A DNA stretch of 44,389 nt. Source: Planctomycetota bacterium. Lineage in GTDB: Bacteria; Planctomycetota; UBA1135. The stretch lies in the NCBI GenBank assembly GCA_029941685.1, contig JAPYTC010000004.1:1-44389 (forward strand), written 5' to 3'. Each line of letters opens with the position of its first letter. Position 1 is the first letter of the stretch. Positions 40,472-44,330 of this stretch are shown here, piece after piece. The notes beneath the pieces are model-generated. The model was given only the letters and a program-made list of their open reading frames with translations, had not been told where the DNA came from and did not search any database. The position numbers and the translations under genes were made by a program.

Positions 40472-43400
40472 CTAAAAATCAGAGCGGCCTTCCCATTCGA
40501 GGATGGTCTGCTTTAGCTTGGAGTAAGTGGGCACATAAAAATCGGCGAACACCACGCGTCCTTGGTCGTCAATGACGATTGTGGTTGGGGTGATTTGCGA
40601 AGCTGGGAGGTCTTCGTATTTTTCGGTGATAATTCGATCTTGCTCGATTTTAAAAGCATCTATGTCGTCGTCGGTGCGATCGCTCAACATGATGTACGCG
40701 GGCTTGTAAACCTTCGCGTATTTCTCCATGTCACTTTTGCTATCACCCAACATGCCGCCGGCATTATTAAAGCCAAGAACTTGTAGCTCGGCGTCATCGA
40801 AATGCAAACTAATCGCATCGATCAGCGGAGATGCTGCCTTGCATGAGGTGCATGTAGAGAACCAAGTTGTAAACATTCGATATTTCGCCTTGGTGTGAGG
40901 CTTACTCATATCTAGAAACAACTTACTGACTTTAGCGTCGTCATGAGTTTTGGTGGTTAGTGTTTCTTGAGCAATTCCTTTACTGACTTTAGCAATCGAA
41001 CTTACTGAGTAACCACTGCCATTCGGCGAATCAGCAGGATTTTCGTAAACAGTAATCAATTGTCCCGGCAACGCCTCAGCCACAACAGTAGTCGCGCCCT
41101 TTGGCCATTGCACAATAAAGCTTGCGGATTCGTTTGCACCAATACCTATCGGCATGGTGCGCGAATTCTGCGCCGCCAATCCTTCGCCACAACGCAACTC
41201 ACGACTGATGTTTAAATCACCAGACTTCAGCAAAACTTTAGCGCCAATACCATCGCGCGCGCCCCACTTATCCGAAGCGGACGCAGTCTTATTGCCTCCT
41301 TCCAAACGAATATAAATCGGCTGATAGGTGGTCTCTGCTGGCATCAAATCGCCAATCTTGTTCCGGTATAACTGAACGTACGGGCGGTTACCGCTGACAA
41401 GGACGAAGTCTTGGTAACCATCGCGGTCGTAGTCGAATAGCGCAATGGCACGCGCATCACCCTTGTGGTCAGCACCCGAAATGCCTGACTGTGTCGAGAA
41501 TTCTTTACCACCGATGTTCAACCAAAAGTGGTTAGGCTCGCTACCCGAAAATGATGCGCCCGAACCGACTTGACCTGGGTCAATGACAACACCAACATCT
41601 TTCCCTTGTTTGATATTTGCATTTTTGTCTCCGCGAACCACGGAGCGCCAAAAATCACTTCACAAATCAACATTGCGTTTTTGATCTTGCGGTGCGGTGT
41701 AATACCCCGCTGGGCCGTACAAGTCGAGATAGCCATCGTTATTAAAGTCAGCAAATTGCGCACCCCATCCCCAGCCACCAAACTCGGTTGAATGCATCGC
41801 TTCGCCCTCAGCAGAGACTTTGGACCACTCGCCATTATCGTTGTTGTGGTACATTGAGTTACCACGTCCAAGTTGCTCGAATAGCGGGTCGATACCCTCA
41901 CCATTAAGCAAGTCGGCGTCGTAATTGACGCGACCTGGCGTGAAGAATGATGTTACGCGGCGTGCTGCTTTCGAAAACATGTTCGTCACGTATAAATCTT
42001 GCAGGCCATCGTTGTCGTAATCACCAAATGCAACACCCATGCCGAAACCTACGTCAGCGACATTCGCCTCTTCGGTAATATCGGTAAATTTACCTCCTCC
42101 ATCATTACGAATTAGGTAATTCGGCGCAAAGTCGTTTGCTGAGTAGAAGTCGAAGTCTCCATCGTTGTCGATATCACTCCACGTGGTCTGGAAAGTATTG
42201 TGAAAAATCCGCAACGCATCTGGCAGAACATGCTCTTCGAATTTGCCATTACCTGTATTGCGTAACAACAAATTAGGTGGCCCCGGACGACTACGGTACA
42301 ACGTCGACCCCTCAGCAGTCTCCACATAAAGCGGCATCAGTTTGTTGAAATCTTCTTCGCGCATAAAAGCCTTCAGCTCATTCACTGCGAAGTCGGTTGT
42401 GGTCATGATCTGCTCATCGCCTTCACCGGATGACTTCACCGCAGCATCGCCTTGCAACGCCTTAATCGCGCGCTGTGCGAAGTAAGCAGCATATGTCGAA
42501 ATGTAAATGTCGTTAAGACCATCGCCATCGAAATCAACCACAGTTGCACCACCCGTGTTGAATGGCAGGTTGTCTTCGGCGATCCAATCACCAGAACGAT
42601 TTACAAAATGGCCATCAACGTTCTCCATGATGATGCTGCGTCGCAGTGAGCCACCGATGAAAACATCTTTGTCACCATCGTTATCAAAGTCAGAGAACAT
42701 CGCAGACGAAGTCTGGCCGTTGAAATCTAAACCTAACTCGCGGCCGATTTCTTTAAATGTTCCATTGCCGTTGTTATGAAAGAACAAGTTGCGGCCATGA
42801 CGCTCTTGCACGTAAAAATCGTCGAAGCCATCGTCATCGAGGTCGACAATCGAAACTGTAGGGTGACGTTCGCCGGCCGCTACCTGCCACTGTGGATATG
42901 GCTTTTCGAATTTTTTGCCTGCCTTGCGTGACTTTAAGAACTCGCGCACTTGGTTTTCGTGAATAGATTGACGTGCGAGCTCGAGGTCGTCGGTGTTCTC
43001 AATCACGTTGTCGAGCACTTCTTCGAATAACCAATCATCTGTTTCGATAGTAGTAAGCGAATTGATTTTCCACGACACAATTTTCCAGACTTGCTTTCCA
43101 GGATCAATCTCGTCACGCGTTGATAGGTCGTGTTCCCAGATGACGTCTTGCCAACCTTTTATTTCAGCAAGGCGGCCATTTTTCATCTTAGCCTTGGCTG
43201 TGAATTTAAAACCCACTTGCCATTGAGTCATCGTTTCGGGATCGATCCAACGTGGCACAGGTAAGTTAACTTTAAACTCGGCAAACTTAAAGTAATCTAC
43301 TTCGGCAAACAGGCTGCTGTACAAATTGAACTCTGACCAGTCTTTAGTCCCAGCTGGAGCTTCATCGGCACCGTTGTAAAAAGTGGCAACCTGCTCGCTG

Positions 43401-43738
43401 AGGTTCCAGTGGCGCTTGCCTGCTGTACCCCCATTCATTACGGTGTCATACTCAGGGAAGAGCTCGACGATGCCGCTGAATTCAAATGTCTCGGCAAAAT
43501 ATTTTGCACAGCCATTGTCGGGAAACTTTTTACCTTGCAGTGCTTCGGCTAGCCCATCTAGGTAACCCGTTTTTCCCCAAGCAATATGCAGTGCCTCAGA
43601 GCGTGTCATACGCTCTGTTTGAATCTCCATTGGTGTCGTTGGAGCCTTTCTTTTAGGCTCATCATTGCATGTTGCAAATGTCATCGCCACCAAGAAGGCA
43701 AGCAACAACGGGGAGTAGTTTCGGGGTGATTTACTCAT
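40472..43738 (-). CDS. FG-GAP/VCBS + ASPIC/UnbV (CRTAC1-like) lipoprotein with C-terminal thioredoxin-like domain, interrupted by one in-frame TGA (candidate selenoprotein)
   Basis: Track ORFs 43738-41660 and 41641-40472 share one frame (43738-41641 = 2097 = 3x699). Junction: GYYTAPQDQKRNVDL-[TGA 41662-41660]-SDFWRSVVRGDKNANIKQG. Repeated DxDxDGxxD (FG-GAP), ASPIC-like DGIGAKVLL..IQWPKGA, then TTWFSTCTSCKAASPLID. Confidence 0.8.
41629..41645 (-). promoter_or_regulatory. Candidate bacterial SECIS hairpin downstream of in-frame TGA
   Basis: Minus strand TGA-AGTGATTTTTGGCG-CTCCG-TGGTTCG-CGGAG: 5-bp stem (6 with an inner U.G pair), apical loop roughly 20-26 nt after the TGA with G in its first two positions. 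Confidence 0.6.
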
Positions 43739-43832: not shown

Positions 43833-44330
43833 ATGCCCAATTCGATAAAACTTTACGTCGCAGTCTCCTCCTGCCTGACAGGCGAAAAGGTACGCCACGA
43901 CGCTACATCTAAAACCTCTACTGCTGTTTTGGCACTAAGTAATAGCTTTGGTCTACTAAAGTTCTGTCCGGAGATGCTTATGGGTTTGGGAACCCCTCGC
44001 GAAACAATCTCCCTGCAGCAACAAAGTGGTGCATGGCAAATAATTGGCAATGAAAGTGCCCATAATTACACCCATCTAGCCGATATTGCTTTAGCAGAGA
44101 TTGACAAGATTTTCGGTGACAAGCGAATTGTCGCTTTTGTGATGAAGTCGCGATCTCCGAGCTGTGCCCTTGGCACTTACCCACCCCCACAAGATAAAGT
44201 CGCGCGTGACGGTTTAATCGCCGAACGATTGCGCTTAAAATTTCCATCGGCACTGTTCGTTGACGAGCAGCAGCTAGAAAACGACGTGGCATTTGCCGAA
44301 TTCGTCCACACTTTAAAACATGAAAGCTAA
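43833..44330 (+). CDS. DUF523 family protein (TudS-like thiouracil desulfurase family)
   Basis: VAVSSCLTGEKVRHDATSK, LKFCPEMLMGLGTPRE, KSRSPSCALGTY: three Cys in the DUF523 pattern. Confidence 0.85.
   Translation: MPNSIKLYVAVSSCLTGEKVRHDATSKTSTAVLALSNSFGLLKFCPEMLMGLGTPRETISLQQQSGAWQIIGNESAHNYTHLADIALAEIDKIFGDKRIVAFVMKSRSPSCALGTYPPPQDKVARDGLIAERLRLKFPSALFVDEQQLENDVAFAEFVHTLKHES

Follow-up and report, generated by a model that had tools for sequence, protein, structure and literature searches.

Does a bacterial gene whose reading frame contains a single internal TGA end at that codon, or is the codon read through, and if so, as what? The question is raised by a minus-strand locus in a 44,389-nucleotide stretch of Planctomycetota DNA (contig JAPYTC010000004.1, hereafter the window), where two open reading frames (41660-43738 and 40472-41641) form one frame with the TGA at 41662-41660 as sole separator, as its preliminary description had stated. 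At no other TGA in the window do long open reading frames (here 702 + 395 aa) join into one protein. The answer reached here, by computation, is that the TGA almost certainly codes for selenocysteine (Sec), as that description had proposed; the reading is supported by a conserved TGA column, a covarying hairpin, and the presence of selA, selB and selD in the host genome, and it rests on sequence comparison. The features of the locus are these:

40472..43738, minus strand: predicted selenoprotein gene, CRTAC1-like with a fused thioredoxin-like domain; single frame, 1,088 residues, TAG stop.
41660..41662, minus strand: in-frame TGA, predicted Sec693; TGA in 140/140 TGA-bearing alignment rows, Cys in 7 homologs.
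43667..43738, minus strand: N-terminal signal or lipobox-like region, residues 1-24 (...FATC24); inferred from a reading of the sequence.
41294..42859, minus strand: FG-GAP beta-propeller, about residues 294-815, containing Sec693; domain and structure matches.
41054..41251, minus strand: UnbV_ASPIC domain, residues 830-895; domain match.
40493..40933, minus strand: C-terminal thioredoxin-like (TlpA/ResA-type) domain, about residues 936-1082; domain and structure matches.
40841..40852, minus strand: CxxC motif C963-T-S-C966, co-evolving with Sec693; homolog comparison.
41629..41645, minus strand: SECIS-type hairpin with stem CTCCGT/GCGGAG and loop GGTTC, the loop lying 20 nt past the TGA; folding and covariation.

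The domains first assigned to the protein, FG-GAP, UnbV_ASPIC and an AhpC-TSA-like region, were all recovered, the last with a Pfam AhpC-TSA score slightly under the cut-off. The AF2 model of the protein (pLDDT 88.8) matches CRTAC1 and ResA: its propeller and UnbV part aligns to the mouse CRTAC1 structure 9etn (Foldseek E 1e-22, TM 0.68 by target length), and its C-terminal domain finds ResA, with the TlpA/ResA-type thioredoxin fold. The CTSC redox motif reported earlier is indeed present, at C963/C966. Sec693 itself lies on the propeller, outside any CxxC-type motif, on an inserted helix (692-702), at its N-terminal end. At the other end of the chain, the N-terminus resembles a lipoprotein signal (C24 recurs in the homolog L009, and other homolog N-termini show VAAAC or SLSC), which would probably place the Sec site outside the cytoplasm, although export is an inference.

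Whether the TGA is a stop can be judged from the homologs, with the proviso that our genome searches were centred on Planctomycetota and that the counts concern that phylum. All 26 genomes searched from the host's own family carry homologs, and almost all of the long matches contain exactly one in-frame TGA, at an identical position in the motif D-L-[TGA]-S-x-F-W-R; the broader CRTAC1-like motif D-L/T-[U]-S-x-F/Y-W-R occurs with TGA in more than 130 Planctomycetota genes. Across the 392 genomes searched from the phylum, a codon pattern that accepts TGA, TGC, TGT or TGG at the site matched 71 times, 69 with TGA, 2 with TGC and none with TGG, while the reversed pattern, used as control, gave none. 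The TGA matches that were fetched are genuine homologs. The two TGC matches (L106, L150) were considered as Cys homologs and rejected as short chance open reading frames. A protein search with a short-form member extended the set to relatives of greater divergence, and these too have TGA at the Sec column. In an alignment of 171 homologs, a few rows of which are the same gene fetched twice, the TGA falls in one and the same column in 140/140 TGA rows, and it is fixed in more than 130 homologs with identities down to about 25-30%. The preliminary description had reasoned that a Sec codon should align with TGA or Cys in relatives, and this is what the column shows in the main: more than 130 homologs have TGA there, and seven have Cys. 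The homologs encoded on plasmids are CRTAC1 proteins only distantly related (about 25% identity), and a search of phages and viral contigs for homologs found none.

These counts bear directly on the most mundane explanation, a genuine stop that marks a split gene or a pseudogene, or a sequencing error for TGC or TGG. A lone TGA in a fragmented assembly is what such an explanation would expect, but the same TGA is shared by independent assemblies as well as by the homologs, so that the read-error alternative raised at the outset was not borne out, and the downstream part of the gene is under purifying constraint much like the upstream part (dN/dS 0.06-0.20 after the TGA, near the value before it). 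With no TGG in the pattern matches, and the two TGC cases dismissed, we consider sequencing error, pseudogene and split gene to be excluded on the sequence evidence, any residual chance being negligible.

The second line of evidence is the RNA downstream. A hairpin, CTCCGU-GGUUC-GCGGAG, had been picked out as a possible bacterial SECIS element, and computation confirms it at 41645-41629, with its loop 20 nt from the TGA and in agreement with the geometry given for such elements, namely, an apical loop of 3-9 nt, a G in the first two loop bases, and a distance of 16-37 nt from the UGA (PMC13188914). For a 45-nt stretch RNAfold gives -14.4 kcal/mol, where shuffled sequences average -9.6 (z -1.9). 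Since a single-sequence energy of this kind is only modestly unusual, the case rests on comparison. Scanned for bSECIS geometry with a stem of at least 5 pairs and at most one G-U, 119/132 distinct TGA sequences have the hairpin, versus 12.9% of synonymous re-encodings of the same peptides, among which the highest count in any replicate was 28. It is present in 0/7 Cys homologs and, across all non-TGA homologs, in 8/32. Of the 13 TGA sequences without a hit, several retain a near-complete stem that the cut-offs exclude. The stem is found in several registers across the homologs. In nine long-form sequences, the window's among them, it is 100% paired, with exchanges (T-A/A-T/G-C and G-C/C-G/T-A) that alter the encoded amino acids; 28 short-form sequences show 98.8% pairing and three pairs that covary. 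In slid controls pairing falls to 24-50% for the long form and 15-74% for the short form, and the covariation score was reached by 0/500 shuffles. A lack of covariation had been named in advance as an outcome that would refute the Sec reading; compensatory changes are instead found in two registers. Moreover, synonymous codons are frozen over the hairpin only, with Ser+9 as TCG in 81/85 (against a 27% background), Gln+6 as CAG in 44/44 and Ser+1 as AGY in 116/116, and codon use is mixed again at +11. Folding energy of the whole stretch, compared with synonymous re-encodings, was also tried as a test (mean z -0.8 for TGA genes and -0.4 for non-TGA genes, p 0.04) and set aside as a weak discriminator; the targeted hairpin geometry was decisive instead.

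A Sec codon also needs a decoding apparatus, and on this point the earlier proposal, which had looked to selA, selB, selD and tRNA-Sec in the genome, is met in three parts out of four. The host genome encodes SelA (E 4e-115), SelB (298 bits, above the curated cut-off) and SelD (291 bits). The selD gene (G000:C180:159-1085) shares a contig with selA and has an in-frame TGA of its own, which may be taken as an independent sign of Sec decoding in this organism. No tRNA-Sec turned up in the host genome; its assembly, at 83% completeness, is also missing the region around the tRNA-Sec gene of a congener. Both congeners have a tRNA-Sec with anticodon UCA, and one scores above the Rfam cut-off in 23/26 family genomes. 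The host's low-scoring tRNA-Sec hits (best 42 bits, cut-off 47 bits) were rejected as ordinary tRNAs. Across the phylum, SelA is present in 43/43 genomes with the core TGA motif versus 263/392 overall. Two genomes with divergent TGA members, G174 (84% complete) and G236 (67%), gave no SelA match. The seven Cys homologs reside in five genomes, four of which have neither SelA nor SelD over the cut-off. It remains conceivable that the TGA is read without selenium, as Trp, Gly or Arg, through code reassignment or natural suppression, and the read-through of the frame in all homologs would suit this. We regard it as very improbable: TGA is also the true terminal stop in 18 of the homologous genes analysed, so the code is not reassigned; the host tRNA-Trp was found with anticodon CCA; none of the homologs found has Trp at the column; and neither the hairpin nor the co-occurrence with SelA would be predicted.

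If the residue is Sec, as we conclude, what is it for? The most useful information comes from relatives that have given it up. On the tree, Sec was replaced about six times among the 139 Sec rows: in one clade by E/A/Q, in another by R/N/H, and otherwise by D, E, S and R. Residues other than Cys at this column had been listed beforehand as counting against Sec. Such residues (E, A, Q, D, S, R, N, H) occur, yet in just 24 nested paralogs, and with few exceptions these have no partner CxxC either. That these 24 carry non-redox residues at the column means that the fold does not need Sec. The seven Cys rows, fewer than is usual for selenoproteins, make up one long-branched clade without the thioredoxin domain. 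Among complete Sec proteins the CxxC is present in 61/70; of the other nine, three have a degenerate domain and six are short, and the fused donor is thus not universal. Paralogs with E, A, D or Q at the Sec column keep the thioredoxin domain at its full length but have lost both cysteines (often DxxS), a Ser paralog retains the CxxC, and the R, N, H and Cys homologs have no thioredoxin domain. Counting unique domain-bearing proteins, the CxxC occurs in 53/56 with Sec versus 1/12 without (Fisher p 3e-9). The Fisher test ignores shared ancestry, and the E/A/Q rows are mostly one loss; the tree itself has three separate Sec losses (E/A/Q clade, D, E), each with loss of the CxxC. This co-loss is a computational observation. 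Because the Sec-replacing E/A/D/Q paralogs kept the domain and lost its CxxC, Sec and CxxC co-evolve, and it is from the pattern of co-loss that we treat the two as one redox unit. A universal resolving Cys near Sec was sought in the alignment and not found (column 737 is C in 38%, column 414 in 59%). In some genomes Sec paralogs coexist with CRTAC1 paralogs that lack both Sec and the thioredoxin domain and have N or H at the column (L069-L074).

The rival that deserves most attention is that Sec binds metal or plays a structural part on the propeller, and that the thioredoxin domain has some other purpose. FG-GAP propellers bind calcium, and the replacements include metal-ligand types (E, D, H, N), but A, Q, R and S occur at the column as well. 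A purely structural role would predict something other than the loss of the CxxC along with Sec in a domain of conserved length, and the location at a helix N-terminus is, by inference, the usual one for redox cysteines. We consider this rival unlikely without dismissing it; a catalytic rather than structural role for Sec693 is itself inferred.

Sec-CRTAC1 genes also occur as paralogs within genomes. The host has two more, with TGA at the same column (G000:C20, L062; G000:C73, L059), and G301, G172 and G404 have at least four each. Tandem pairs of the long form are found in four related genomes (L013+L038, L014+L039, L015+L037, L016+L040). A relative with 84% identity to the N-terminal half is encoded on a 4.3-kb contig (L010) that is assigned to a SAR92 gammaproteobacterium MAG but probably comes from a member of Planctomycetota, through misbinning. 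The window itself has, at 43833-44330 on the plus strand, a DUF523/2-thiouracil desulfurase gene (PF04463) arranged head to head with the Sec gene. DUF523 has been reported as a selenoprotein family (PMC12013277); the window copy has no in-frame TGA.

The mechanism that we favor would begin with SelB and Sec-tRNA recognising the hairpin 20 nt downstream, so that Sec693 is inserted instead of termination. The product would be an exported, probably lipid-anchored protein of 1,088 residues, in which Sec693, on its helix in a propeller of calcium-binding type, is most likely the redox-active residue, and the fused TlpA/ResA-like domain (C963-C966) most likely returns Sec to its reduced state at the end of each turnover. 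The whole protein may then be a self-contained extracytoplasmic selenol oxidoreductase. TlpA/ResA-type thioredoxins have electron donors of the DsbD/CcdA type, and by analogy an outside donor of this type might feed the thioredoxin domain; the direction of electron flow is inferred, and no substrate can be assigned. We lean, with some reserve, toward such a relay of Sec693 chemistry and recycling by the fused thioredoxin (the Sec-CxxC distance was not measured in the model), and hold it somewhat probable, to a like degree, that Planctomycetota as a phylum possess exported selenoenzymes with a catalytic Sec on the propeller and a TlpA/ResA-type thioredoxin on the same chain as dedicated reductant. 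A different kind of protein, one that stores or delivers selenium at the cell surface as Sec and is no enzyme, could be imagined from the multiple copies in some genomes (the four genes in G301, G172 and G404) and from the probable export. With a single Sec in a chain of about 1,000 residues, and a fused thioredoxin CxxC better suited to catalysis, we find it hard to credit.

As the preliminary description had suggested, the gene belongs to what we judge to be a new selenoprotein family; its architecture is unusual. A May 2026 catalogue, which covers 119 families and subfamilies of prokaryotic selenoproteins, lists none with CRTAC1, FG-GAP or UnbV (PMC13188914), NCBIfam of June 2026 has no matching model, and we found no prior report in the literature of Sec in CRTAC1, UnbV, ASPIC, FG-GAP or VCBS proteins. 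It is possible that members were listed earlier without a name, in a 2016 supplement of candidates from two red-alga Planctomycetes (PMC4807772). If the family has indeed been overlooked, the reason would be that annotation splits each member into two truncated CRTAC1 pieces and that Cys homologs are few. Standard gene calling will truncate the Sec-CRTAC1 proteins of Planctomycetota, and would split the gene in the window at the TGA. The family suggests that current catalogues overlook families whose relatives swapped Sec for residues other than Cys, a blind spot that the deep-Sep paper itself states (PMC12013277). The lesson is a large selenoprotein family outside the usual thioredoxin-like folds, with more than 130 genes in a sample of one phylum and up to four members per genome, and a redox centre as the first mechanistic lead for the uncharacterised bacterial CRTAC1/UnbV propellers.

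With the bacterial bSECIS selenoproteins, the family shares the UGA, a hairpin 16-37 nt downstream, the loop G, and selABD, together with a tRNA-Sec in the host's congeners and in most genomes of its taxonomic family. Known members are mostly thioredoxin-like, many with UxxC or CxxU, whereas none of those catalogued has CRTAC1, FG-GAP or UnbV (PMC13188914). With the CRTAC1/ASPIC-UnbV family, for which no Sec is reported, the window protein has in common its domain order and its propeller/UnbV fold, to which it adds the Sec-bearing helix and the C-terminal thioredoxin domain. That domain, in turn, has the fold and the CxxC of the extracytoplasmic thioredoxins TlpA and ResA; unlike them, it is fused to a propeller, and across the family its CxxC occurs almost only alongside the propeller Sec.
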